Assembly (NCBI GenBank): GCA_024637035.1
Contig: JAGXFW010000009.1
Coordinates: forward strand, 1 to 64,000
Length of the DNA: 64,000 nucleotides
Source: Actinomycetes bacterium
Lineage (GTDB): Bacteria > Actinomycetota > Thermoleophilia > RBG-16-64-13
Reading direction: 5' to 3'
Shown here: in pieces, positions 1-64,000 of the stretch
Numbering within the stretch: position 1 is the stretch's first letter
How the letters are laid out: the number at the start of each line of letters is the position of its first letter
Notes under the pieces: generated by a model
Database searches by the model: none
Seen by the model: only the letters and a program-made list of their open reading frames with translations
Told to the model about the DNA's origin: nothing
Program-made: the position numbers and the translations under genes

Positions 1-264
1 CATGTCGATGTGGGGACGGAGGATGTCGAGCCCGGCGTAGAGGGCGTCGGCGCACATGAGTACCTCGGGGACGAAGTACTCCTGGCTGTCGAAGAGCACG
101 CCGACCTCTTCCATACCGGAGGCGAGGCCGTCCATGATGGCCTCATAGGCGTCGAAGCCTTCGTCGAGCACGGCCTGGGCGGCTACGGACACCCGGTCTT
201 CTTCGTACTCCACGACACCTTCGTGCAGTTCCTTGAAGAGTTCAGCTTTGCGTTCGTCTGACAT
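1..264 (-). CDS. Corrinoid protein (MtbC/MttC type), N-terminal part
   Basis: First 88 residues of a cognate corrinoid protein, cut by the window edge. Such proteins carry a cobamide that shuttles a methyl group from a substrate-specific methyltransferase to an acceptor methyltransferase in the cytoplasm. Only the helical cap domain is visible, with the family-like stretches GMEEVGVLF and YFVPEVLMCADAL; the cobalamin-ligating DxHxxG motif would lie outside. The ATG at 264 has a strong ribosome-binding site (AAGGGAGG) about 9 bases upstream. It follows the UroD-type methyltransferase gene on the same strand after 127 bases, the usual pairing. The methyl donor cannot be told from this part. Confidence 0.85.
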   Translation of the reverse strand, partial: MSDERKAELFKELHEGVVEYEEDRVSVAAQAVLDEGFDAYEAIMDGLASGMEEVGVLFDSQEYFVPEVLMCADALYAGLDILRPHIDM

Positions 265-326
265 GTGGTATTCCTCCCTTGGGCCGACCTGCGGCGACCC
301 TTCGTGCTGTCTCTATGGCCGGTCCG

Positions 327-354
327 GACTCGCGACCTCGTGAGGCCGCGAGTC
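327..354 (-). promoter_or_regulatory. Intergenic RNA hairpin between methyltransferase and corrinoid genes
   Basis: Perfect 8-base arms GACTCGCG (327-334) and CGCGAGTC (347-354) enclose an inner CCTC/GAGG stem with a two-base loop, giving a 28-base hairpin. It lies in the 127-base gap between the methyltransferase stop and the corrinoid protein start. There is no T-tract after it, so it is more likely an mRNA stabiliser, processing site or attenuator than an intrinsic terminator. The role is inferred. Confidence 0.5.
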
Positions 355-391
355 GGTCCGGGCCGGCACTCGTGTTCGACCGGTTGCGCCC

Positions 392-1462
392 CTACAGGAT
401 CGGGTACTGCCCGTACTCCTCTGCCGCTTCCATCATCGCGATGGCGTTGAGCAGGGAGCCGTTCGGCGGGAACTCGCAGCCGGTGGAGAGGATGTAGCCG
501 CCGCCGGGAGCCAGCACCTGGATCTGCTCCTTGCATTTCTCCTTGACCTGCTCGGGTGTGTGCAGGATCATGTCGGGGCTCGGCGGCACGTAGCCGATCA
601 GACAGGTCTTGTCGCCCCACTTCGCCTTGAGTTCCTCGGACGACTTGCAGTCGTCGGGAAGGTAGGCGAAGCTGATCGCCTCGGGCTTCATGGTCTCCAT
701 CTGGACGTCGAAATAGACGTTGTTGCCGCAGTTGTGCACGATCACGGCTTTGCCGTGGCTGTGCACGCGGTCGGCCATCTTCTTGGCGTAGGGGCCCTCC
801 ATCTTCATCCACAGGTCTTTACTCATGATGGACCCTGAGGCGAAGAGCGTGTCGATTACCACGGCGTGGGCGGACGTCTCGCACAGGGCGTCGATGTAGT
901 CGAGCAGCACGTCGGTGATGATCTCCGACGCCTCGTGCACCACTTCGGGGTTCTTCATGCAATCGACGAACAACCGCTCCGCTCCGCGCAGCATCGAGAG
1001 GATGCCAAGCGGACCGTAGATGAAGGTCATGACGCCCGTGTGGCTGGCGAGCGCGTTCGCCACGCCCTCGGTGTAGCGGAGCATGTGGCTCATCCGCTTG
1101 CCTTTGCGGGGGTCGATGCGCTCGATCTTCTTGTAGTCCTCGAGCGATTGGATCAGGTTGGCCTTGTACACTGGATGCGGCGTGTCTTCGATCGGGAACA
1201 CCACCGGGCCGCCGAAGTCGGCGCCCTCTACCGAGAGGTCCACCAGAAGAAGCACTCCGTCGGGTCCGATGAGCTTGTGCATCTGCACCATGCTCTCGAC
1301 GGCCAACTCGGAGTCCTGCGCCCACTCTTCGTACGTGATGCCAAGCACGCGGCGGGCGGCGCCGCACACCAGCGGTCCGGCCGGTACTCGGTCGCCTTCC
1401 TTGAAGGTCAGTGCCGAGACGATACGTTCCAGTCCCGTCATTTGCGCTGTCTGCATACTCAT
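392..1462 (-). CDS. Uroporphyrinogen decarboxylase-family methyltransferase (MtaA/MtbA-like)
   Basis: A 356-residue member of the UroD/MtaA/CmuA family, which moves methyl groups between a corrinoid protein and a thiol or folate-type acceptor, or demethylates substrates. The zinc motif of the methyltransferase branch is present: His243-x-Cys245 (in VHNCGNN) and Cys329 (in STGCEF). True heme-pathway UroD lacks this arrangement. The ATG at 1462 is preceded by GAAGGGGG 7 bases upstream. It is followed by the corrinoid protein gene on the same strand, which supports a corrinoid-dependent role. The upstream two-component pair on the same strand may control it. Substrate and acceptor (CoM-like thiol or tetrahydrofolate) are unknown. 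Confidence 0.82.
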   Translation of the reverse strand: MSMQTAQMTGLERIVSALTFKEGDRVPAGPLVCGAARRVLGITYEEWAQDSELAVESMVQMHKLIGPDGVLLLVDLSVEGADFGGPVVFPIEDTPHPVYKANLIQSLEDYKKIERIDPRKGKRMSHMLRYTEGVANALASHTGVMTFIYGPLGILSMLRGAERLFVDCMKNPEVVHEASEIITDVLLDYIDALCETSAHAVVIDTLFASGSIMSKDLWMKMEGPYAKKMADRVHSHGKAVIVHNCGNNVYFDVQMETMKPEAISFAYLPDDCKSSEELKAKWGDKTCLIGYVPPSPDMILHTPEQVKEKCKEQIQVLAPGGGYILSTGCEFPPNGSLLNAIAMMEAAEEYGQYPIL

Positions 1463-1699
1463 GCGGTCCCCCTTCTTCCGTGTGGTGAGACTTCCCCTGA
1501 ACGAACTCGTCCATCCAGCCGAGGAGTGGTGGCTACCCGATGCGGGTGACCACGTCTTCCCCTTGGCCCTCGGACGTGCGAGCGTTACCCATCAGTGTAC
1601 GGGGAGCACGGCCAGAGCGGAACCGCGAATCGGGGCTATCTTGAGAGTGCTCCAACGGGTGAGGCTTCGACTCTCGTGAGTAATCCTTTCGGGTAGTGT

Positions 1700-2377
1700 C
1701 TACTCGACGGACCCTTCCGGCCCGAGCCCGAAGCGCATAGCGTAAGTCGCGGCCTGTGTGCGGTTCTGCACGTCGAGCTTCTCGAGGATGTTCTTCACGT
1801 GGGCTTTCGTGGTGTTGAGCGTGACGTGGAGCTCCGCCGCGATCTGGGCGTTGCTGAACCCGCGGGCTACCAAGCGCAGCACTTCGGTCTCGCGGGCGGT
1901 GAGGCTCGGTCCTACGGACTTCCGACCCTCAGCGGACACATCGACGACCGCCATACGCCGGAGCATCCGGGAAGCGATGGCCCGTGTGACCGCCACCTCG
2001 TCGCGTGAGACTCCCTCCACCAATTCGAAGAGTTCGGCCGCGTCGAGGTCTTTCAGCAGATAGCCCGATACGCCGAGCCGAAGGGCCCGGTCGAGGTGTT
2101 CGTCGAGTTCGGACGCGGTCAACATGACCACCGCGATGTCCGGGAACTGGGAGCGGATCTCGGCCGCCGCCTCCAGACCGCTGCCGCCGGCGAGGTAGAT
2201 GTCGAGCAGGATCAGGTCGGGTTGCAGCTGCCCGCAGAGTGCCACGGCCTCCTCTTCCGTCCCGGCTTCCCCCACGATATCCACTAGATCGGCCCGCGTC
2301 TTCATCAGGCTCACCAAGCCCTGGCGGAAGAGTAGGTGGTCGTCGGCGACGACCGTGCGGAGGGGGAGCGACTTCAC
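1700..2377 (-). CDS. NarL/FixJ-family response regulator
   Basis: A 225-residue cytoplasmic response regulator. The receiver domain spans about residues 8-125, with acidic pocket ADDH, phospho-acceptor Asp59 (LILLDI) and conserved Lys109. A LuxR-type helix-turn-helix covers about 159-212 (LTARETEVLRLVARGFSNAQ). The GTG start at 2377 overlaps the kinase stop by four bases (GTGA), indicating translational coupling; a longer in-frame ORF reaching 2473 would run inside the kinase and is rejected. It is the evident partner of the HisKA_3 kinase just upstream. Target genes are not known; the methyltransferase/corrinoid genes 237 bases downstream on the same strand are candidates. Confidence 0.92.
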   Translation of the reverse strand: MKSLPLRTVVADDHLLFRQGLVSLMKTRADLVDIVGEAGTEEEAVALCGQLQPDLILLDIYLAGGSGLEAAAEIRSQFPDIAVVMLTASELDEHLDRALRLGVSGYLLKDLDAAELFELVEGVSRDEVAVTRAIASRMLRRMAVVDVSAEGRKSVGPSLTARETEVLRLVARGFSNAQIAAELHVTLNTTKAHVKNILEKLDVQNRTQAATYAMRFGLGPEGSVE

Positions 2378-4539
2378 CGCTTGGCGGTGACCCGACCGCT
2401 CGACCACTCTGCAGCGAAAGGCTTGCCGCCTCCTGTTTCCAGGGGGAGCCGTAGGCGCACGAGTGTCCCGCACCCCGGCTTCGAATCGATCTCCAGGCGG
2501 CCGCCTACGCTCTCCGTGCGTTCCTTCATCGACTGCAGGCCGATGTCCCGACGCACGGCTTTCGGGTCGAACCCGACCCCGTCATCCTCCACCGTCACCG
2601 TGAGGAATGCATCCTCCCGGATGAAGTTCACCCACAGGTGCCCGGCCTGGGCGTGCCTGCGCACATTCACCAGCGCCCCCTGTACGATGCGCACCAACTG
2701 CACCTCAGCCATGGAGGAGAGCCGCAGGGCGTCGTCCACCTCCGATCGGACGTTCACATTCACCGAGGTCTGAGCGTCGAACTCCCGCAGGTAGCTCCTG
2801 AGGGCGGTGATGGGTCCACCGTCTGTGGAGAGCGCCGTTCGCAGACTCAGGATGTTCTCTCGCACTTCAGAGTGAGCTTCCAGTATGCGGGCGCGGGCGT
2901 GCTTCAATTCGGCGAGCGTCTCGTCCACCCGGTTCTGGCGTACGAGCACCTCGAGCGACTGCATCTCCAGATTGAGGAAGCCGAGGATCTGAGCCAGCCC
3001 GTCGTGCATCTCGCGGGCCATGCGTGTGCGTTCGTCGAGCACGGCGACGGAACGGATCTTCTGCGCCATGATCGCGTGCTCCACCGCGACGACGGCCTGG
3101 TTGGCCAGGCTCTCGAGCACCACTTCGGCCGAGGCGGGGAAGGGTGTGTCGCGGCCGGCGATGAGTGTGCCCACCACCTGGCCGTCCATGACGAGCGGGA
3201 CCGCGAGGCAGGAGCCTCCTCCACCGGCGATGGGCGGTGAGCCCAGGTCGGAACGGAGTCTGCAGGCGATCTCGTTGAGGCAGGAGCAACCGGTGTTTCC
3301 GCAGGAGGGGCCGTGGTGCGCGGGGTAGGCGTAGCTGAGCCCCCCGCGTCTATCGGTTCGCCCTTGGGAGTCGGAGGACGGTCGGTGGGTGTCGAAACGC
3401 ACCTCGAAACGCTTGAGTTCCTCATCCCACATGCAGAGGGCGGCGATCTCGGCGTCGAGGAGGGCGCGCGCCGATTCCACCACGAATGGAAGTACGTCTT
3501 CCACTTCACCCATCGTGGACACCCGGTGGGCGATCTCCACCAACGTGTTCACCCAATGTTCGATGGTCTCGTTGAGCACGAGCGCCTCTTCCTTCTGCCT
3601 GCGCTCTGTGAGGTCGTTCAGGATCACGACCGTGCCCTGGTACTTCTCGGTAGCGTCGGCCATGTGCTTCATCTTCACTTCGAAAGCACGTTCCCCGAGC
3701 AGGGTGTCCACCACCTTCTCGAACACCACCTCATGCTCGCCGGTCGAAGCGAAACGGGTGACCTCTCGGGCCAGCCAGGGAAACACCTCCACCAGGGGCG
3801 GGCGATAGTACGAGAAGGTGTCCCGCTGTCCCCCCTCGTGGAAGTGCTCCATCGCAGCCTCGTTCATCCCTTCAATGCACAGCTCCGCGTCCACGAGGAT
3901 CACTGGGTCATACAGGCTCTCGAAGATGGTGTAGTACTTGTTCTTCTCGTTGACCATGAGGCGGTTCAGGGTCTGGAGTTCGTCCACGCGTTCATCGTGG
4001 GTGAGCGAGTTCCACTCCACCCCGCACCCGATCTCGAAGAGGTCGAAGAAGCGCTCGAGCAACACGAGGCATTCCCGCTCGATGTGTCGCTCGAGGCCCG
4101 CGCCGCGGACGAGGTCGAGGTAGCTCTGGCGGTAGTACTTCACCAGCCCGAGGAACATGGGCAGTGTCACGCCTCGCGCGCGGTGCCGGCGGACTTCTTG
4201 CCGGCCGAACGCCGCTATGGGAGTCTCATGGGCGAAATCGTCCACACCGAGTTCGGGGATGGTGCCTGCGCTGTCGATGGCGTCGACGATCGAATCGGTG
4301 AGACCGATGATGGAGATCTCCCAGGCCTTGAGCTGGGTGGCGGCGTAGCGGCTGTAGCCGTGCTCCTTGGCGTAGCCGAGCACCCGCTCGAGCAACCAGG
4401 GCTTGCTCCGCGTCAACAGGTCGATGAGAACCAGGTTCGTGGACCCCAACGTGCCCCCTTGCCCGTTGCTGGGATCGTGCACGGGGGACTTTAGCATGCT
4501 CGAGCGAGAGGAACGGCGCGTGCTCGCCGGCCAGGTCAC
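2374..4539 (-). CDS. NarX/NreB-like sensor histidine kinase (PAS, GAF, HisKA_3)
   Basis: About 700 residues with no transmembrane segment, so probably a soluble sensor. After an unassigned N-terminal helical region (about 35-190) come a PAS domain (about 200-310), a GAF domain (about 325-490), a HisKA_3 dimerisation helix with phospho-acceptor His512 ([11 protein letters not shown]) and a HATPase_c domain to the end ([23 protein letters not shown]). The GAF domain holds a cysteine cluster, Cys413-x4-Cys-x-Cys-x5-Cys426, a possible metal or redox site. The start is uncertain: GTG at 4539 has its GGAGG too close, and ATG 4497 or a TTG near 4450 behind AAGGGGG are alternatives. It overlaps its response regulator by four bases. 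Confidence 0.88.
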
Positions 4540-4659
4540 CCTCCACCGTCACACGTCGATCCCCGCCTGCTTGGCGCCGCCGATGGCGGCGCCTGTTGCT
4601 TCGGTCGCACGAGCGCCGTGGGCCACCGGTCGGGCGGGATGCTCCACGGGAGCGTCTGC

Positions 4660-4665
4660 TACCCT
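4660..4665 (+). promoter_or_regulatory. -10 box for a leaderless rnhA transcript
   Basis: TACCCT sits exactly six bases before the rnhA ATG at 4672 and there is no ribosome-binding site between them. This is the spacing expected when transcription starts at the A of the start codon. No good -35 box is visible. Confidence 0.45.
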
Positions 4666-4671
4666 GTTCGA

Positions 4672-5208
4672 ATGACTGAACCAGGCACCAACGACGAACG
4701 CGCGCCGGGCGCCCCCGCCGTGGTCAAGGGCACCCCCGCCGCGGTCCAAGGCGGCAGCGCCGGCGGCGGCACGGTCAAGATCTACACCGACGGCGCCTGT
4801 TCGGGCAACCCCGGGCCGGGCGGCTACGGGGCCATCCTTCTCAGCCGTGGGCACCGCAAGGAGCTCTCCGGCGGCGAACCGGACACCACCAACAACCGCA
4901 TGGAGCTGCGGGCCTGCATCGAAGCGTTGCGTGCCCTCAAGTATCCGTGCGAGGTCGAACTCACCTCGGACTCCCGCTACGTCGTTCAGGGCATCGAAGA
5001 CGGCTGGGCGGTGCGATGGCGGCGGAACGGTTGGATGCGCGACAAGAAGACACCGGCCAAGAACGCCGACCTGTGGCAGGAGCTGCTCGAACTCTGCGCC
5101 GTACACCGCGTTCGCTTCCTCTGGGTGCGCGGACACGATGGCCATCCCGAGAACGAGCGCGCCGACGAGTTGGCCGTCGCGGCCATACGGGGGATCGGCC
5201 GGCGCTGA
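4672..5208 (+). CDS. rnhA: Ribonuclease HI
   Basis: A 178-residue RNase HI, which cuts the RNA strand of RNA-DNA hybrids during replication and R-loop removal. All four carboxylate residues of the metal site are present: Asp40 ([14 protein letters not shown]), Glu78 (NNRMEL), Asp100 (TSDSRY) and Asp165 (NERADELA), plus His155 in the flexible loop. The core is of normal length; the first ~33 residues are a low-complexity Gly/Ala/Pro extension. The ATG at 4672 is chosen over an upstream in-frame ATG because the family core begins just after it and a -10-like box lies six bases upstream, which suggests a leaderless mRNA. It is divergent from the histidine kinase gene. Confidence 0.95.
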
Positions 5209-5308
5209 ACTGGGCCGGATTCAACGCGGCACCGCCCCGAAACGTCGGCGGCGGCGCAGCGACCCCGAGCACTCGGTCGGCCACCGCTGTCCAGGCGCAG
5301 CCGGACGG

Positions 5309-5791
5309 CTATGCTCCTCTGTCTCGCCCTCCCGGGGGCTGTACCACGAGGTCGACCTCGCAATCCAAGACGCTGAGCAGATCAAGGAGTCTGTCCACGG
5401 ACTTGCGGTAGTTCGTGGGATCGAGGAGCCGGTAGAATTGCGCGGGTGACGTGCTCAACCGCCGGATGATCTCGCGTTTGGAAAGGTGGCTTTCGTCCAC
5501 GCGCTCCGACGCTTCGAGGGTCAGCTTGTAGAGCAGAAGATCCCTCATGTAGCCGGGATCGCGGTTGTACTCGAGTACTTCGTCGACGTGGACCGATCCC
5601 TCGAGACCCGAGGCCAAGCGGAAGGTGAACCCCTCGCGGCCGAGTTCGTCGTCGACGCCCACCGCGACCAGCGGATCCCGCCCGGAGGGAGGAGGCTGGG
5701 CCTTCGAGTAGGGAAACGAGAACAACCCTTGCCGCGTAGACACTTCGAATACGCGCTTGTGGTTGTTGGGTGAGACGTTCTTGATCTTCAC
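5309..5791 (-). CDS. DUF2442-like protein with C-terminal antitoxin-type HTH
   Basis: A 160-residue cytoplasmic protein. The first ~75 residues resemble DUF2442-type small domains (KIKNVSPNNHKRVFEV, a beta-rich segment, then GREGFTFRL and SVHVDEVLEYN). The C-terminal ~75 residues hold a helix-turn-helix (SKREIIRRLSTSPAQFYRLL) like those of HigA/XRE antitoxins, ending in DCEVDLVV. The GTG at 5791 is chosen because GGAGGGG lies 5-6 bases upstream and the extended reading frame to 6487 has no family-like content. A good promoter lies at 5862-5890. No toxin gene is adjacent, so it may be a solitary regulator. Function unknown. Confidence 0.72.
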   Translation of the reverse strand: MKIKNVSPNNHKRVFEVSTRQGLFSFPYSKAQPPPSGRDPLVAVGVDDELGREGFTFRLASGLEGSVHVDEVLEYNRDPGYMRDLLLYKLTLEASERVDESHLSKREIIRRLSTSPAQFYRLLDPTNYRKSVDRLLDLLSVLDCEVDLVVQPPGGRDRGA

Positions 5792-6132
5792 AGAAGCCCC
5801 TCCGCCTTGAGTCGACGTATCAACCCTCGTACCCGCCTCGCCGGATCTTGGGCACGAAAAAATGATACCTCGCAAGGTAGCGGTTAACAAGAGACTCGGA
5901 CTGGAGTTCCCAGTGATAGCAGCCCGAGGGTCTGTCTGGAATCGGACAGAAGGTGGAGTCGCAGGGCAGGCCGAGTGAAGCACGTGCGCTAGGCCTGCGA
6001 CCCGATCCCGCAGGCATCGTCGAGGCCGCGCGACGTCCGCTGGGCGAAGGGTCGCGCCTAGGATGCCTGGGGGGCTTGAATCCCGCGTCGGCACGACTCT
6101 GCCGAATCCACGGTGGGGCGGGTAGTCGTCGA
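5792..6132 (+). other. 341-base intergenic region
   Basis: It holds the promoter described at 5862-5890 in its first 100 bases. In the remaining ~240 bases, between the promoter and the end of the kinase gene at 6133, I see no gene, repeat or convincing terminator. Confidence 0.5.
5862..5890 (-). promoter_or_regulatory. Sigma-70-type promoter of the DUF2442/HTH gene
   Basis: On the minus strand a -35 box TTGTTA (5885-5890) and a -10 box TATCAT (5862-5867) are separated by exactly 17 bases. Transcription would start near 5855, about 65 bases before the GTG at 5791. The region is clearly more AT-rich than its surroundings. Confidence 0.6.
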
Positions 6133-7671
6133 TCAGGAGCCGCTGCGTCCCCCAAGAGTCGCGTCGTCGCCGGCCACGATGTCCCGCCACCATTCCAGGT
6201 ACGGTTCGCTCTTCGGCATCTTTCCTCGGGGAGTGCGGGCAAGGTGGGAGAGGTTGAGGGCGTGACCGAGCATGGTGGTGCCGAGGATGTCTCGGAAGCC
6301 TCCCTCGTCGACGCTCAGGTGGCGTCTGAGTCTGAGCAGGATGTCGCCCAGCCATTGCGGTCTGGCGGACGGGACGGCGAACCGAGAGCGGAAGACCTCT
6401 ACCTTGTCGTCGAATGCGGAAGCTCCGCTCTTGCCGGTGAGCACGAAGGCGAGCAGAAAGAGGAGATCGCCTCCGGGCAGTCCCCACCCCGCCGACTCCC
6501 AGTCGATGAGCGCGGCCCGGCCGTCAGAGGACAGCACGTTCCAGGGCCCAGCATCGCGGTGGCAGAAGGTGAGCGAGATACCGGTGGTCTTGAGACGGGC
6601 CGGGAGCCCCTCGAGGTAGTCGTGTTCGCGCGGACGGAGCTCGAAGTTGGCCCGGGCCGAGCGCGCGATGGAGCGTGTCCATCGACCCAGGTCCGGCGGC
6701 TTCATCGCTCCTGTCTCGACCCGGCGCGAGGTCAGGCGTTCCAGGTCGTAGAGCCAGACGGCCAGCCTCTCGAGTTCATCCAGTCTCCCCGTCCACGGAC
6801 GGTACTCTAACGGCACTCCGTGCACCGCCGACTGAGCCCACCCCTGGTGGGGCCCCCATGAGACCTGTCCGAGAGGTCTCACCGGTGCCCCGGGCATGAT
6901 CCGCTGGACTCTGGTCAACTGGGTCTGCTCCCGCGTGAGCAACGCGCTGAGGGAAGGCTGTCGCGGCACCTTGACGACCCGGAGTTCTTTCGGACCATCC
7001 CCCTGGCCGCCGGCGACTTCGATCGCCACGAGCGGCTTGCTCGCCTCCCAGGGAGCCGAGGCGATGATCGTTCCTCCGGCGTGATCGACAAGGGTGCCAG
7101 CCGGGCCGGCTATCGTGATCCCGGTCTCCTTGATCAACGATTGGAGTGTCAGACCGGGCAGGCCCAACCGCGCCCGGGCGAGCCGACCCTTAACGGACAT
7201 CGGGGGGATGAGCCCCTGCCATACGTGGTGCCGGGCATTCTGGTTGTCGGCGGGGAAGTAGAAGGTCGTGCCGGTATCCGTGGGGACGGCGCGGAGCGAG
7301 AACACCTCTGCGAAGTCCACGCCGGCAGCCTCGGTGGCGTCGCGGAGCGCCTTCCGGCTCGTGTGCGCGGCACCGAGTAGGACCACGACGGTTGCGGGGC
7401 CTATCCGCCCCCCGTGGGCGAGGACGGCCACCGCGGAGGAGGAGGCTGCGGCGAGTACGACCAGGTCGACCGCGCCGGTCCAGTGGCTCACCGCCCCGGC
7501 GTCGACTCCCTCAGCGGGGAGACTCTCAGCGGGGAACCTCTCGACCCGGCCCGCTGACTCGGCGAGTGCTTCCGCGAGGCCGGCGGGTGTCCCGCTCCCG
7601 ACGATGGCGGTCTCCCAGGATTGCCTGCTCAGGTAGAAGCGCCAGTCGGGGAGTTGGAGTGCCTCGTTCAT
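6133..7671 (-). CDS. APH-fold phosphotransferase with a long unassigned N-terminus
   Basis: A 512-residue protein whose C-terminal half is an aminoglycoside/choline-kinase-type (APH) domain. The catalytic loop reads FCHRDAGPWNVL, with His371, Asp373 and Asn378, and the metal motif is Asp390-Trp-Glu (ALIDWESAGWG). It therefore probably phosphorylates a small molecule hydroxyl with ATP. Residues 1 to about 215 are not part of a standard APH protein; they contain alternating hydrophobic strands (AVDLVVLAAASSS, ATVVVLLGAA), suggesting a Rossmann-like domain, and FYFPADNQNARHH. No signal peptide or membrane helix. It stands alone, and its substrate cannot be named. Confidence 0.72.
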   Translation of the reverse strand: MNEALQLPDWRFYLSRQSWETAIVGSGTPAGLAEALAESAGRVERFPAESLPAEGVDAGAVSHWTGAVDLVVLAAASSSAVAVLAHGGRIGPATVVVLLGAAHTSRKALRDATEAAGVDFAEVFSLRAVPTDTGTTFYFPADNQNARHHVWQGLIPPMSVKGRLARARLGLPGLTLQSLIKETGITIAGPAGTLVDHAGGTIIASAPWEASKPLVAIEVAGGQGDGPKELRVVKVPRQPSLSALLTREQTQLTRVQRIMPGAPVRPLGQVSWGPHQGWAQSAVHGVPLEYRPWTGRLDELERLAVWLYDLERLTSRRVETGAMKPPDLGRWTRSIARSARANFELRPREHDYLEGLPARLKTTGISLTFCHRDAGPWNVLSSDGRAALIDWESAGWGLPGGDLLFLLAFVLTGKSGASAFDDKVEVFRSRFAVPSARPQWLGDILLRLRRHLSVDEGGFRDILGTTMLGHALNLSHLARTPRGKMPKSEPYLEWWRDIVAGDDATLGGRSGS

Positions 7672-54930: not shown

Positions 54931-55926
54931 CTACCAGTCGCGCAGATCGTTGATCATCCAGCCGGCTTCGGTCGGTACCACGTGGTACCGCCAGCGGTCT
55001 CGTCCGTACGTCCAGGTCTCTTCGACTTTCACCCAGTAGGTGCCATCGGAGGCCTTCTCGACGCTGTCGACCGTGTATTTCTTGAAGTCACCGTTGCTGT
55101 AGGAAGCGCTCGCGGCGTCCAGAGAGAATGGTTCCACGGTGAGGGCGTGGGCGTCATCGGCGCGGTCTTCCATGACGGCGACTAGGAACGACTCCACCAC
55201 CGACTGCGCCTCGTCCGCCTCGGACATCGGGACGTCTGATGCTCCCAAAGCATACGTGTCCGCAACGACCCAACTGCCGTCCGGCGCCGGTTCCACGATG
55301 TAGGCGGTCACGAATTCGCTCGCGGGCGGCCCTCCCCAGAACTCCATTTGGACGCCTTGGTCGTCTGCCAGCCTGTACACCCAGCCTTCAGGGAGCTCGG
55401 CCTTCACCGCCTCCTCGGCGGAGGCGTACCCGGAGAGTCCGGCGGTGGTGGGCGGAGCGGTCGTCGCCGCGGCCACCGTCGTCACTGTGGTTGTGGTCTC
55501 GATCTGGGCAAAGGTGGTGGTGGTCGACACATTCGTGTCGTCGCCCCTCAGGAGCATGAATGCTCCACCGGCCAGTGCACCCAGCAGCACCACTCCCACG
55601 ACCGACAAGGCGATGATCAGCCCCGTGTTGCCGCCGCTCTTGGGCGGAGGAGCCGACGGCCCTGATGTCTGGGGGCCGTAGCCGGGCGGAGGGGGCGCGT
55701 AGCCGGGCGGAGGGGGCGGCGATGACTGGCCGTACGTGGCGGGTGGCGGAGCGGGCACCCAACCGGCCGCGGTCGGCGGAGGTGGAGGTGGGGGTGGAGT
55801 GGTGGCGGGCGTTGGGGGACCTGGAGGCGGAGCCCCGGGGGAGGGCGCCGCGGTCATCCGAGCGCCGCAGGATCCGCAGAACTCCGCGCCCTCCGGGTTG
55901 ATCTCTCCGCAGTTCGAGCAGTGCAC
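54931..55926 (-). CDS. Zinc-ribbon, Pro-rich, single-pass membrane protein
   Basis: A 331-residue protein of unknown function. Residues 1-25 are a zinc ribbon (CSNCGEINPEGAEFCGSCG), about 30-100 a Pro/Gly/Tyr-rich linker, and about 108-132 one membrane helix (IIALSVVGVVLLGALAGGAF). A Thr-rich spacer leads to an outside domain of about 170 residues (TAYIVEPAPDGSWVV, VVESFLVAVMEDRADDAH, WTYGRDRWRYHVVPTEAGW), resembling NTF2-like or DUF4878 folds. GTG 55926 is chosen because AAGGAGG lies six bases upstream; ATG 55944 is in frame but has none. It may be a membrane stress or envelope sensor. Confidence 0.72.
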   Translation of the reverse strand: MHCSNCGEINPEGAEFCGSCGARMTAAPSPGAPPPGPPTPATTPPPPPPPPTAAGWVPAPPPATYGQSSPPPPPGYAPPPPGYGPQTSGPSAPPPKSGGNTGLIIALSVVGVVLLGALAGGAFMLLRGDDTNVSTTTTFAQIETTTTVTTVAAATTAPPTTAGLSGYASAEEAVKAELPEGWVYRLADDQGVQMEFWGGPPASEFVTAYIVEPAPDGSWVVADTYALGASDVPMSEADEAQSVVESFLVAVMEDRADDAHALTVEPFSLDAASASYSNGDFKKYTVDSVEKASDGTYWVKVEETWTYGRDRWRYHVVPTEAGWMINDLRDW

Positions 55927-56079
55927 CAGGATCCTCCTTCGCATCGGTCACGCCTGGTCGAGCAGCCTCATCATATCGAATGCAGGTGGGGGTGCGCGAG
56001 GCGGGTCGAATGCCGCTCCTGGCCGCACGGGTGCGAATCGACTAGTATGGAGCCATCGAGGTCGTTGCGCGGAGGCTCC

Positions 56080-57402
56080 ATGGTGGGCGAGACCTATGAA
56101 TACCTAGTGGTGGGGTCCGGGGCAGGCGGTGCGGCGGTGGCCAGGCAACTGGCGCTGCGTGGCAAGAGCGTCCTGATCGTGGAGCGCGGCCACCCTCAGC
56201 CCAGCCTCGGCACCTTCGCCGCGGGCACCCGGTTCTACGACGTAGCGCCGGTCACGAACCTGCCTCCCCGCTCTCGCGAGGGGGTGACCATGTGGAGGGC
56301 GTTCGCCGCCGGCGGCTCGACGATCGCGGCTTGCGGCAACATGGTGCCCAGCCTGGTCGAGGAGCTCGCTCTGACGGGCATCTCCCTGAAGGACGATATC
56401 GCCCGTGTTGAGGATGAGATCGGCGTGCGGCCGATCGACAGCGGGCTGCTCACGTCGGGAGGCCGGGCCCTTGCAGCGGCGGCAGCCGAACTCGGCCACA
56501 CCTTCTCCGCGATGCCGAAGGCCCTCGACCCTCGGAAGTGCCGGGGCTGCGGCCACTGCACTCTGGGTTGCGCGAACGGTGCTAAGTGGACGGCGGCTCG
56601 GTTCGTGGACGAAGCTGTGACGGCCGGTGCCCGCACCGCCTTTGGCATGCAGGTGGAGACGGTGCTGCTCGATGACCGCGGGGCGGCCAGGGGCGTACGG
56701 GCCCGCGGTCCGGACGGCTCAGTGGATTTGTCCGCCGAGGTTGTGATCCTCGCCGCCGGCGGCTTGGGCACCCCGCCCATCCTCTTGAAATCCGGGGTGA
56801 TCGAGGCGGGTGGCGGCTTCTTCCTGGACCTGTTCGTGAACACGTACGGGGTGATCTCCTTCGACGGCGCCGGAGGCCGAGGAATACCGGCACCGAACCT
56901 GGCTCACGAGCCGTCGATGGCGCTGGTCGACATGGAGCATAGACTCGCCGATGGTTTCATCCTCAGTCCGTACATCAACCAGCCAAGGCGGGTGCGCTTC
57001 ATCGAGGCCGGCCTTCGAGGGTTCGCGCTTCCCGGGGAACGGACGCTGGGCATCATGACCAAGATCTCCGATGAGACCACGGGCCGGGTGTTCGCCGATG
57101 GCTCCGTGAGCAAGACGGTCACCGCTGAGGATCGTCGACGTCTCGATCGCGGAGCGGCGCTCTCTCGGCAGATCCTGATCCGGGCGGGCGCGAGGCCAGA
57201 GTCGATCGTGGTCACCCGCCCTCAAGGTGCCCACCCCGGCGGGGGAGCCGGCATCGGCCGTGTGGTCGATGCCGCGCTGCGCACCCGCATCGAGGGGCTT
57301 TACGTCTGCGACGCCAGCGTCCTACCCGAAGCGCCAGGATTGCCTCCGATACTCACCCTGCTGGCATTGGGACGATGGTTGGGGAACCGGTTGGCGGCGT
57401 AG
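56080..57402 (+). CDS. GMC-like FAD oxidoreductase with four-Cys motif
   Basis: A 440-residue flavoprotein of the GMC (glucose-methanol-choline) oxidoreductase type. The FAD motif is YLVVGSGAGGAAVARQLA (residues 8-25) and a second FAD contact is in VILAAGGLGTP. The C-terminal GMC segment is GAHPGGGAGIG with YVCDASVLPEAPGLPP. A Cys154-x2-Cys157-x2-Cys160-x3-Cys164 motif (KCRGCGHCTLGC) is ferredoxin-like and may hold an Fe-S cluster. ATG 56080 follows GGAGG by four bases; GTG 56083 is an alternative. Substrate probably an alcohol or a sugar; electron partner unknown. Confidence 0.78.
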   Translation: MVGETYEYLVVGSGAGGAAVARQLALRGKSVLIVERGHPQPSLGTFAAGTRFYDVAPVTNLPPRSREGVTMWRAFAAGGSTIAACGNMVPSLVEELALTGISLKDDIARVEDEIGVRPIDSGLLTSGGRALAAAAAELGHTFSAMPKALDPRKCRGCGHCTLGCANGAKWTAARFVDEAVTAGARTAFGMQVETVLLDDRGAARGVRARGPDGSVDLSAEVVILAAGGLGTPPILLKSGVIEAGGGFFLDLFVNTYGVISFDGAGGRGIPAPNLAHEPSMALVDMEHRLADGFILSPYINQPRRVRFIEAGLRGFALPGERTLGIMTKISDETTGRVFADGSVSKTVTAEDRRRLDRGAALSRQILIRAGARPESIVVTRPQGAHPGGGAGIGRVVDAALRTRIEGLYVCDASVLPEAPGLPPILTLLALGRWLGNRLAA

Positions 57403-61387: not shown

Positions 61388-61771
61388 CTACTTCGCCATC
61401 TCTGTCAGACTGAGGATGTTGCCTTCGCTGTCCTTGAACCAGGCAGCCTTCATGCCGTCTTCGACGAAGACGCCGTTCTCGGTCTTGAGGCCCTCCAGTT
61501 CGTAGTCCTCGAACGCAACACCCTTGTCCCTGAGGCCTCTCATCTCGGCGTCAAGATCGTCCACGAGGAAGAAAGCGGCGGTGGCTTCGCCCGGTTTCGA
61601 CGCGCTCTGGTAGACGAGGAATCGCGTGCAATCGCCAGCCTGGTAGATCGCCGAGCCGTTAGGCTGGGGCATCTCGACCTTCTTGAGCCCGAGCTTGTCT
61701 TCGTAGAAACGCGCCGCCCGCTGGATGTCGGAGGCGGGAAGGGTCGGATATATCTGTGAGCCGGATAGCAT
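61388..61771 (-). CDS. VOC-fold (glyoxalase/dioxygenase-like) protein
   Basis: A 127-residue single VOC protein with the two beta-alpha-beta repeats (PTLPASDIQRAARFYEDKLG; AAFFLVDDLDAEMRGLRDKG; KAAWFKDSEGNILSLTEM). Such proteins bind metals or ligands and may be glyoxalases, resistance proteins or dioxygenases; the metal residues are not all convincing, so function is open. AGGAG lies about 10 bases before the ATG at 61771. It is divergent from the RdhA-like gene. Confidence 0.85.
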   Translation of the reverse strand: MLSGSQIYPTLPASDIQRAARFYEDKLGLKKVEMPQPNGSAIYQAGDCTRFLVYQSASKPGEATAAFFLVDDLDAEMRGLRDKGVAFEDYELEGLKTENGVFVEDGMKAAWFKDSEGNILSLTEMAK

Positions 61772-61930
61772 CGTGTCTGCTCCTACATTGCTTGTGCTAC
61801 CCCTGATACATACCCAAATGACAGCTGTTACGAACTAGCCTGAGGGGTTCTCGGTGAACGCGTCGAGGCTTTCCCACCCCCCATGGTAGAGTGCGGCCTC
61901 GGGTCGGTTGTCGAGTCTGAGGAGTCGTCC

Positions 61931-63292
61931 GTGCCGGGTCTCATCGAGAGCTTCGCGGGAGCGGTGACGGTCGTCGGCGCCCTCGGTCTTGCTTGGTTCG
62001 CGGTCGCATCGGTGCGGGAGGGTGAGCACAGGGCGGCCAAGAGGGCCGTGTTGGTCGTCGTCGGGCTCCTTGTGGTTGCCGCCCTGGCCGTGGCGGGACC
62101 TTCGCCATGGGCGGCTGCGCTTGCTTCCGCCGTGACCCTCACGGTGGCTGTGGGCGTGCTCCTCCTATTCGTTCCCATGGGACGCGTGATCCGAGGCCCC
62201 GACGCGCCGACCCTGAGAGTTGATGAGCGAGACATCATGTTCGCCCGGGCGCGTCTGGGCCCCGAGGGGCCGCAGTTCGAGGAGTACTACGCGATGCGCC
62301 CCGAGAACCGTGAGTCTGACGACCGCACGCGTGCCCTTCCCGGTCTGGGCTCTCCACGATCAGGCAAGGCGCAGCCCTGGGCGTTCACCGCCATGGACGC
62401 GTCGTTCACGTTCACGGAAGCCGTGCGTGCCGAGGTGGACGGAGCCGTCGCTCACGCCATGGTGGTCGCGACGCCGGAGCAGTTCACGCACTATGCGAAG
62501 GGTCTCGCTCGCCTGTGGGGGGCTCGGACAGTGGGCGTCGCGGAACTCCGGCCCTATCACGCCTACTCGCACGTTGGTCGGGGGGACGGAGTGTGGGGCG
62601 CGCCCATCGACGTACCCCACCGCTACGGGATCGCCTTCACGGTGGAGATGGACTTCGACCTCGTACGCACGGGTCCCGAGGCCTCCGAGGCCATGGAGTC
62701 CGCGCATCAGTACGTGGAGGCGGCGGTCGTGGCTCTGCAGCTCGGCTACGCGATCCGTTCGATGGGCTATTCCGCCCGGGCGCACATCGACGGCAACTAT
62801 CAGGTGATCGCACCGCTCGTGGCGCGCGACGCCGGGCTGGGAGAGATCGGCCGGATGGGTCTGCTGATGACGCCCGAACTCGGTCCCCGGGTGCGGTTAG
62901 GCGTGGTCACCACCGATCTGCCCCTCGTGGCCGACGGACGAAGGCTTGACGACTCGGTGCTCGACTTCTGCCGCATCTGCGAGAAGTGTGCGGAGAACTG
63001 CCCGAGTCATTCGATCCCCACCGGCGATCGGGTCCTGTTCGATGGAGCCCTTCGCTGGCGCATCGACGCCGACACGTGCTTCCGCTACTGGAACAGCGTA
63101 GGCACGGATTGCGGGCGCTGCATGTCCGTGTGCCCCTACTCGCACCCGAGTTCGGCCGTGCACGATGTCGTGCGGTTCGGGAACCGCCACTCGGGGTTCG
63201 CCCGGCGCGCGGCTCTACGGCTCGACGACGTGTTCTACGGGCGGATCCCCGCTCCGGGGCGTCCTCCTGCCTGGTTACCGCCGAAGCTCTAG
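61931..63292 (+). CDS. Membrane-anchored reductive dehalogenase-like protein
   Basis: A 453-residue corrinoid/iron-sulfur protein related to RdhA. Residues ~5-95 form three membrane helices instead of the usual Tat signal. The catalytic part has HIDGNYQVIAPLVARDAGLG, GRMGLLMTPELGPRVRLGVV and TTDLPL, the typical RdhA/QueG B12-domain stretch. Two [4Fe-4S] motifs follow: Cys347-x2-Cys350-x2-Cys353-x3-Cys357-Pro, and Cys383-x10-Cys394-x2-Cys397-x3-Cys401-Pro (CFRYWNSVGTDC, GRCMSVCP), the second being RdhA-like. GTG 61931 has GAGGAG six bases upstream. No rdhB anchor gene is near. The substrate is unknown; halogenated compounds are one possibility. Confidence 0.8.
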   Translation: MPGLIESFAGAVTVVGALGLAWFAVASVREGEHRAAKRAVLVVVGLLVVAALAVAGPSPWAAALASAVTLTVAVGVLLLFVPMGRVIRGPDAPTLRVDERDIMFARARLGPEGPQFEEYYAMRPENRESDDRTRALPGLGSPRSGKAQPWAFTAMDASFTFTEAVRAEVDGAVAHAMVVATPEQFTHYAKGLARLWGARTVGVAELRPYHAYSHVGRGDGVWGAPIDVPHRYGIAFTVEMDFDLVRTGPEASEAMESAHQYVEAAVVALQLGYAIRSMGYSARAHIDGNYQVIAPLVARDAGLGEIGRMGLLMTPELGPRVRLGVVTTDLPLVADGRRLDDSVLDFCRICEKCAENCPSHSIPTGDRVLFDGALRWRIDADTCFRYWNSVGTDCGRCMSVCPYSHPSSAVHDVVRFGNRHSGFARRAALRLDDVFYGRIPAPGRPPAWLPPKL

Positions 63293-63328: not shown

Positions 63329-64000
63329 TTACTCCAGCAGCATGCGGTCGGAGGCGAGTGTCTCGCCGGCGACTTCGTGGAACTTCCGCACCAGTTCAGG
63401 CACGGTGAGCGACGACTTGTCTGCTCCGGCCACGTCGAGGATCACCCGTCCCGCGTGCATCATCATCAAGCGGTTGCCCCGGGACAAGGCCAGCTCCATG
63501 TTGTGCGTGACCATGAGTGTCGTCAGGCGTTCGCGCGTCACGATCTGGGTGGTGAGGTCCATGATCGTGGCGGCCACCTTCGGGTCGAGCGCGGCGGTGT
63601 GCTCGTCGAGCAGAAGGAGCTGCGGCCGGGTGATGGTGGCCATGAGGAGCGAGAGGGCCTGACGCTGGCCGCCCGAGAGCTTCGCCACGGCGGACCGAGG
63701 GCGCTCTTCCAGGCCCATGCCGAGCTGCGACAACTGCCCCTTCACGGAGGCGCGGCGCGATGCCGATAACCCTCGAGCCAGTCCCCGGCGTTTACCCCGG
63801 AGCATGGCGAGACACAGGTTCTCCTCGATGGACAGCGATGGCGCGGTGCCTGCACGAGGGTCCTGGAACACGCGGCCGATCGACTGTGCCCTCAGGTGTT
63901 CGGGTCGTTGAGTCAGCTCCTTGTCGTCGAGCCAGATCTCTCCGTGATCGATGGGGAACGTCCCGGCGACCGCGTTCAACAGCGTAGACTTCCCGGCTCC
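63329..64000 (-). CDS. ABC transporter ATPase (TrpX type), partial
   Basis: C-terminal 223 residues of an ATPase, cut at the window end within Walker A (GAGKSTLLNAV). The stretches SIGRVFQDPRAGTAPSLSIE, LSGGQRQALSLLM, LLLLDEHTAALDP and VTHNMELALSRGNRL are typical of the importers with an ABC_sub_bind-type binding protein (TrpXYZ-like). Substrates of this group include aromatic amino acids; the binding protein and permease genes would be beyond 64000. The stop is two bases after the repeat downstream of the convergent RdhA-like gene. Confidence 0.9.
   Translation of the reverse strand, partial: GAGKSTLLNAVAGTFPIDHGEIWLDDKELTQRPEHLRAQSIGRVFQDPRAGTAPSLSIEENLCLAMLRGKRRGLARGLSASRRASVKGQLSQLGMGLEERPRSAVAKLSGGQRQALSLLMATITRPQLLLLDEHTAALDPKVAATIMDLTTQIVTRERLTTLMVTHNMELALSRGNRLMMMHAGRVILDVAGADKSSLTVPELVRKFHEVAGETLASDRMLLE

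Follow-up and report, generated by a model that had tools for sequence, protein, structure and literature searches.

The closest described relatives of the protein considered here are the "hybrid putative RDases", first described in 2018–2019 (Jochum 2018, PMC6129605; Atashgahi 2019, PMC6797604). These proteins of approximately 450 aa possess three membrane helices, an EXE motif and two Fe-S motifs (FeS1 and FeS2), lack both the Tat signal and an RdhB partner, and form a separate clade (PMC6129605, PMC6797604). The 2019 review assigned the hybrids' EXE loop to the stretch connecting helices 1 and 2 and likened it to RdhB, and TMHMM predicted an exoplasmic C-terminus for many of them (PMC6797604). 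No hybrid RDase with a known activity is on record (PMC6797604, PMC9303371, PMC10624902), their function was still undemonstrated in the later papers (PMC9303371, PMC10624902), and their physiological function and activity "remain to be assessed" (PMC10624902). Organohalide respiration has not been reported for the hybrid carriers strain NaphS2 and D. sandiegensis (PMC6129605).

Three structurally characterised systems are relevant for comparison. In D. hafniense PceA2B2 (8q4h), cryo-EM revealed menaquinone between the two C-terminal PceA helices and PceB TM2/TM3; the residues of this site include K489, H495, R499, D515 and Y520, and the EXE glutamates of PceB, E61 and E63, belong to the TM2–TM3 loop (PMC10624902). 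Corresponding helices bear numbers one lower in the hybrids than in RdhB (helices 1–2 in PMC6797604, TM2–TM3 in PMC10624902), and the RdhB sequences collected in this work (L071–L099) agree with the latter source. NpRdhA (4ras, 6zxu) is a soluble cytoplasmic enzyme with a second RdhA-like N-terminal stretch and an NADPH-linked electron supply. QueG (5d08, 5d6s), which has no membrane helices and a catalytic Asp134 (according to the titles of the B. subtilis structures), shares with the RdhA proteins the core cobamide/2×4Fe-4S fold over approximately 210 residues.

The window, i.e., the whole stretch of 64,000 nucleotides analysed here, carries close to its 3' end an intact ORF coding for a stand-alone RdhA-fold protein with a GTG start. 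This protein belongs to the hybrid putative RDases, all five distinguishing features of which were found in it, and no functional or structural difference from the published members was detected. The gene and its parts are as follows (residue numbers refer to the 453-aa form):

61931–63292, plus strand: hybrid rdhA, encoding a TM-anchored reductive dehalogenase homologue of 453 aa (the alternative ATG at 61883 would yield 469 aa)
61934–62017, plus strand: membrane helix 1, residues 2–29, the probable counterpart of RdhB TM2 (AF2, hhalign)
62018–62026, plus strand: EXE motif E30-G-E32, within the charged loop that joins helices 1 and 2 (family alignment)
62027–62095, plus strand: membrane helix 2, residues 33–55, the probable counterpart of RdhB TM3 (AF2, hhalign)
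62102–62164, plus strand: membrane helix 3, residues 58–78, a linker into the catalytic domain (AF2)
62192–63238, plus strand: RdhA-fold catalytic domain, residues 88–436, which would hold a cobamide and two 4Fe-4S clusters (VIA-align)
62711–62713, plus strand: catalytic tyrosine Y261, equivalent to SmPceA Y246 and NpRdhA Y426 (profile alignment; Y in 44 of 44 hybrids)
62894–62896, plus strand: R322, equivalent to SmPceA R305 and NpRdhA K488 (profile alignment; R in all 43 hybrids with letters at this position)
62969–63004, plus strand: FeS1 motif C347-x2-C350-x2-C353-x3-C357-P358 (motif and family alignment)
63077–63136, plus strand: FeS2 motif C383-x3-W387...G391-x2-C394-x2-C397-x3-C401-P402 (motif and family alignment)
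63161–63238, plus strand: predicted menaquinol-site residues H411, R415, D432 and Y436, matched to DhPceA H495, R499, D515 and Y520 (alignment)

The 453-aa form is preferred, since a ribosome-site-like GAGGAG lies immediately 5' of the GTG at 61931 and the start points of the relatives approximately coincide with it; no such stretch accompanies the ATG at 61883. The scan for promoters and terminators returned no signal above chance.

Among the curated families, TIGR02486 (RDH) was the best match (E = 4.5e-41), with a score of 141.7 bits lying below the curated cut-off of 160.35, as it does for a related Thermoleophilia hybrid; the PF13486 profile missed the window protein, its sole match being a paralogue. 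The phmmer search against the PDB retrieved NpRdhA (2.6e-46), SmPceA (2.9e-34) and DhPceA (3.7e-29), with QueG far behind (1e-4). The AlphaFold2 model, built from a 20-row alignment (mean pLDDT 91.2, pTM 0.89), displays helices at residues 2–29, 33–55 and 58–78 followed by the catalytic domain. Its VIA-align matches were NpRdhA (Z 37.6), DhPceA (Z 35.5) and SmPceA (Z ~33), and the DhPceA match spans model residues 88–452, so it includes the C-terminal membrane-edge helices. CblC/MMACHC, CblD and nitroreductase, considered as fold relatives, were discarded, as their Z of 5–7 is background for this search. The protein thus has the RdhA fold (Z 33–38 to three RdhA structures) together with the catalytic Tyr and Arg, Y261 and R322, and the model suggests that it would bind a cobamide and two 4Fe-4S clusters.

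The equivalence of the catalytic residues was established by profile alignment followed by counting along the structure chains. The invariant counterparts of SmPceA Tyr246 and Arg305 in the hybrids are an addition of this work to what is known of the group; the tyrosine is shared with NpRdhA, whereas the arginine takes the place of its Lys488. For SmPceA N272, a two-residue indel leaves two candidate equivalents, D287 and N289. Both RdhA-type Fe-S motifs are complete (FeS1, C347–C357-P; FeS2, C383...C401-P), as had been noticed in the first-pass annotation.

The tree analysis supports the same assignment. All RDases are split from QueG and QueG-like proteins in the quick tree (SH-aLRT 98) as well as in the careful tree (89 rows, 273 columns; 95/92 after re-rooting), and the 39 hybrids of the latter constitute one side of a branch with a support of 100/100, lying with the RDases, and QueG forms another such group at the far end of the tree. 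The position of the hybrid clade among RDases is unstable: the quick tree makes all other RDases its sister group, and the careful tree the soluble RdhAs without TM helices. By profile, structure and tree, the window protein is therefore of the RdhA type, placed with the reductive dehalogenases and outside QueG. The two checks proposed along with the initial annotation, tree placement relative to QueG and a model with a cobamide-binding fold, thus both turned out in favor of the RdhA assignment.

A membrane-anchored variant of QueG standing in for the missing true enzyme was considered as well, since searches of the host genome (G000), of its sister species (G001) and of another Thermoleophilia genome of the same family group (G005) yielded distant QueG-like proteins (in G000, on contigs C7, C16 and C24) but in none of the three a QueG scoring above the curated cut-off. 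Almost no credence can be given to this reading: the protein scores 37.7 bits with the QueG profile TIGR00276 at a cut-off of 200, its model matches QueG with Z 14.9 over ~212 residues vs. 33–38 for the RDases, it falls outside QueG in the tree, and a true QueG co-occurs with the hybrid in four other genomes (G061, G062, G063 and G065).

The first scan found 19 full relatives of 37–60% identity in Chloroflexota, Acidobacteriota, Bacteroidota, Spirochaetota and other phyla, and further genome searches expanded the hybrid set to 44 distinct proteins. As the same architecture recurs in at least 44 proteins of several phyla and many columns of their alignment are invariant, it is not a product of chance. 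Hybrids are rare in Actinomycetota, where 1 of 396 sampled genomes had one at E ≤ 1e-60, namely the host genome itself; they are carried by 19 of 198 sampled genomes (~10%) of one Bacteroidota order and, in the class to which an Anaerolineales MAG belongs, by 10 of 249. The two Thermoleophilia hybrids (from G000 and G005) are located in the trees among Chloroflexota copies, suggesting horizontal transfer. The presence of a hybrid in Actinomycetota, in a Thermoleophilia-related host, is new here, this phylum being absent from the 2019 table. Since the type as such had already been described, the novelty of this locus lies in the host phylum and in two sequence-based arguments developed below, one for a fused quinol site and one for the orientation of the protein in the membrane.

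The host genome (3.57 Mb, 34 contigs) harbors a second hybrid on contig C15 (L043:7598-8124), which is truncated, with the N-terminal part missing, bears a frameshift and a TGA, and is 62–70% identical to the window protein over the C-terminal part. In the sister species (contig C21, L050:6941-7100), the flanks of the locus are syntenic at 80–88% DNA identity, the hybrid and ABC genes are gone, and approximately 28 C-terminal hybrid codons remain together with the tail of the ATPase gene. The hybrid gene is, hence, dispensable. The broken C15 copy and the 3' scar of the sister species could also be read as signs that the window gene itself is decaying and non-functional, which is very improbable, since this copy is full-length and every invariant residue in it is intact.

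Two soluble Tat-less RdhA paralogues are encoded in the same genome, one on contig C3 near NpRdhA and the other on contig C30 in the PceA/respiratory group, so that there are three deeply separate RdhA types in the host, none of which was seen with a Tat signal. The C3 protein (L042:7476-8828), close to the catabolic NpRdhA, is also present in the sister species (L047). In the C30 region (L045:7587-12087, also L048:7278-11729), the RdhA gene is situated directly 3' of a gene resembling the gamma subunit of 2-oxoacid:acceptor oxidoreductase and near a ferredoxin-like gene, and the sister species shows a similar arrangement of its RdhA and ferredoxin-like genes; the C30 RdhA may draw low-potential electrons from the 2-oxoacid:acceptor oxidoreductase complex.

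The surroundings of the hybrid gene and the other features of the window mentioned below are the following:

395–1462: MtaA/CmuA-type methylcobamide methyltransferase
61388–61771, minus strand: divergent neighbour with the glyoxalase/bleomycin-resistance fold, outside the system
63329–64000, minus strand: convergent neighbour, ABC transporter ATPase continuing past the end of the window

Neither of the hallmarks of a classic respiratory RdhA, the Tat signal peptide and the RdhB partner, is present: the window protein contains no Tat signal (RRxFxK), no rdhB was found beside its gene, and no small protein with at least two membrane helices that could serve as RdhB was found around it (L046, positions 1–7000). 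This bears out the earlier remark that no anchor gene is near. The corrinoid methyltransferase reported from the other end of the window is there indeed (MtaA-like), and its suggested link to the hybrid gene, 60 kb away, found no support and was dropped. Downstream of the convergent ATPase gene lie a permease and then a PF04392 substrate-binding protein (L046:3330-6233). This PF04392 (TrpX-like) ABC transporter was lost together with the hybrid gene in the sister species, which could be a hint at the substrate; it is absent near other hybrids and was set aside as a substrate clue. Likewise, an operon or a conserved partner gene was sought and rejected: the 20 hybrid neighbourhoods compared share nothing except between close relatives, and no halogen-metabolism gene was seen among the neighbours of the hybrid. 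Elsewhere in the window, the GMC/MftG-like FAD oxidoreductase at 55921–57402 gives weak Fer4 matches at residues 201–221 (E ~0.02), possibly reflecting an extra Fe-S site or chance.

The three N-terminal helices, on which hydropathy and the AlphaFold2 model agree, occupy the place of the Tat leader, as the first-pass annotation had it. The EXE motif is well conserved, E30 being kept in 44 of 44 hybrids and E32 in 40 of 44; the RdhBs that adjoin Tat-type RdhAs in Chloroflexota mostly have E-x-E-x-x-A/S between TM2 and TM3. In the hhalign comparison, TM1-EXE-TM2 of the hybrids fell exactly in register with TM2-EXE-TM3 of true RdhBs (score 23.7, probability 30%, 41 columns). The highest scores among the controls were 18.1 for segment-preserving column shuffles (0 of 150 above the real score) and 23.1 for shuffles confined to the EXE loop (0 of 100 above), and the reversed profile scored 14.9; the match is a short one and rests mainly on the EXE loop. 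As the in-register alignment exceeds all shuffles, the anchor probably consists of an RdhB hairpin deprived of its first helix and supplemented with a new linker helix. Compared with PceA2B2, with which it shares the RdhA fold, the catalytic Y/R pair, the H/R/D/Y residues and the EXE motif, the window protein is one polypeptide instead of two, has no Tat signal, lacks RdhB TM1 and features the additional TM3 linker.

The residues lining the quinone on the PceA side have likely counterparts too. In the profile alignment, H411, R415 and D432 align with DhPceA H495, R499 and D515, and Y436 corresponds to Y520 only if a one-residue shift in the D-to-Y spacing is allowed. The H, the R and the D..Y pair are all kept in 42 of the 42 hybrids with a complete C-terminus. 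NpRdhA has G and A at the H and R positions; the closest soluble relatives that have no TM helices and whose C-terminus could be read (L024, L025, L084, L085 and L086) mostly retain H and D..Y and have A, V or S instead of R. Some Tat-less soluble RdhAs, the C30 paralogue among them, have all four residues, so the H/R/D/Y set is supporting and not decisive for a quinone site. The respiratory sequences were left out of this comparison because a fixed offset misreads several of them. This residue-level argument for a fused quinol site, a new element of the present analysis, suggests that quinol may be the electron donor of the hybrid. The host genome encodes corrin-ring synthesis (CbiB, CobB, CbiE/T, CobI, CobM, CobJ and CobS) and the futalosine route to menaquinone (two MqnA/D-family proteins, MqnC and MqnE); hence, both cofactors of the mechanism outlined below are available. 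Menaquinol is a thermodynamically weak donor for the Co(II)/Co(I) couple, and the same question arises for the known quinone-dependent RDases.

The distribution of charges argues for the sidedness of the protein. On average, the hybrids carry 2.8 K+R residues in the EXE loop and 3.3 just after TM3, against 0.14 in loop 2–3, and the pattern is seen in 44 of 44. The true RdhBs (Chloroflexota set) have 0–1 K/R in the EXE loop, the opposite side being K/R-rich. By the positive-inside rule, such loop charges suggest that the EXE hairpin and the catalytic domain of the hybrids face the cytoplasm, i.e., in the reverse orientation to RdhAB and PceA2B2; an upside-down unit of this kind also fits the missing Tat signal. 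This charge-based case for an inverted orientation, likewise a new element, bears on the doubt raised by the TMHMM predictions (PMC6797604). Alternatively, the catalytic domain might be exoplasmic as in classic PceA, exported independently of Tat, so that quinol oxidation would release protons outside and energy would be conserved, as the TMHMM results for many published hybrids (PMC6797604) and the functional analogy to PceA2B2 (PMC10624902) would have it. Such an arrangement appears improbable, given that there is no Tat signal for carrying a folded cobamide/Fe-S protein across the membrane and that the loop charges are opposite in all 44 hybrids, the reverse of the K/R distribution in true RdhBs.

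Overall, it is considered fairly probable that the window protein is a one-piece, cytoplasm-facing RdhA-type cobamide/2×[4Fe-4S] reductase with its own RdhB-like hairpin, probably fed by menaquinol and probably acting on an organohalide. In the proposed mechanism, menaquinol would bind in a pocket that the two C-terminal helices (H411, R415, D432 and Y436) form together with the EXE hairpin, and its electrons would pass via the two [4Fe-4S] clusters to a base-off cobamide; Co(I) would then reduce the substrate, with Y261 as the proton donor and R322 in a stabilising role. Provided that the predicted orientation is correct, quinol would be oxidised and the substrate reduced on the same, cytoplasmic face of the membrane, so the step itself would build no proton gradient; it would suit a role in disposing of electrons, in detoxification or in the catabolic removal of halogens, any conservation of energy taking place upstream. 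The non-classical reductase of the original annotation, with its catalytic domain following the helices and facing the cytoplasm, gains the support of profile, fold, tree and charge distribution.

That the substrate would be an organohalide is challenged by another reading, in which the same fold serves a membrane-bound cobamide reductase for a different electrophile, e.g., an epoxide, an aryl ether or a quinone-like compound. The lack of halogen-metabolism or conserved neighbours across the 20 loci, the cultured hosts NaphS2 and D. sandiegensis not being reported as organohalide respirers (PMC6129605), the ability of the same fold to reduce other things in QueG and the separation of the hybrid clade from all characterised RDases speak for it. 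It is nevertheless judged rather unlikely, because the hybrids invariably have the equivalents of the Y246/R305 pair found in true RDases and their core is nearer to RDases than to QueG in sequence, structure and tree.

A broader proposal extends the favored account of a quinol-fed, cytoplasm-facing organohalide reductase to the whole group. The hybrids may represent an inside-out menaquinol:organohalide oxidoreductase, in which the TM2-EXE-TM3 contact of RdhA and RdhB was kept by gene fusion (with RdhB TM1 lost and the linker TM3 gained), the EXE loop took over the positive charges, and the whole unit was turned upside down. Drawing electrons from the quinol pool, it would carry out the reduction of organohalides (or other electrophiles) in the cytoplasm, independently of Tat export and with no proton gradient of its own. 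This is advanced tentatively, as a possibility somewhat short of an even chance.

With the evidence from residues and topology, the remark that the function of the hybrids remains to be assessed (PMC10624902) becomes a testable question, namely, whether they are one-gene, Tat-independent, quinol-fed dehalogenases facing the cytoplasm. Should this be true, the hybrids would offer an unusually simple dehalogenase module for study in a laboratory host, and the natural halogen cycle would be widened to Actinomycetota.
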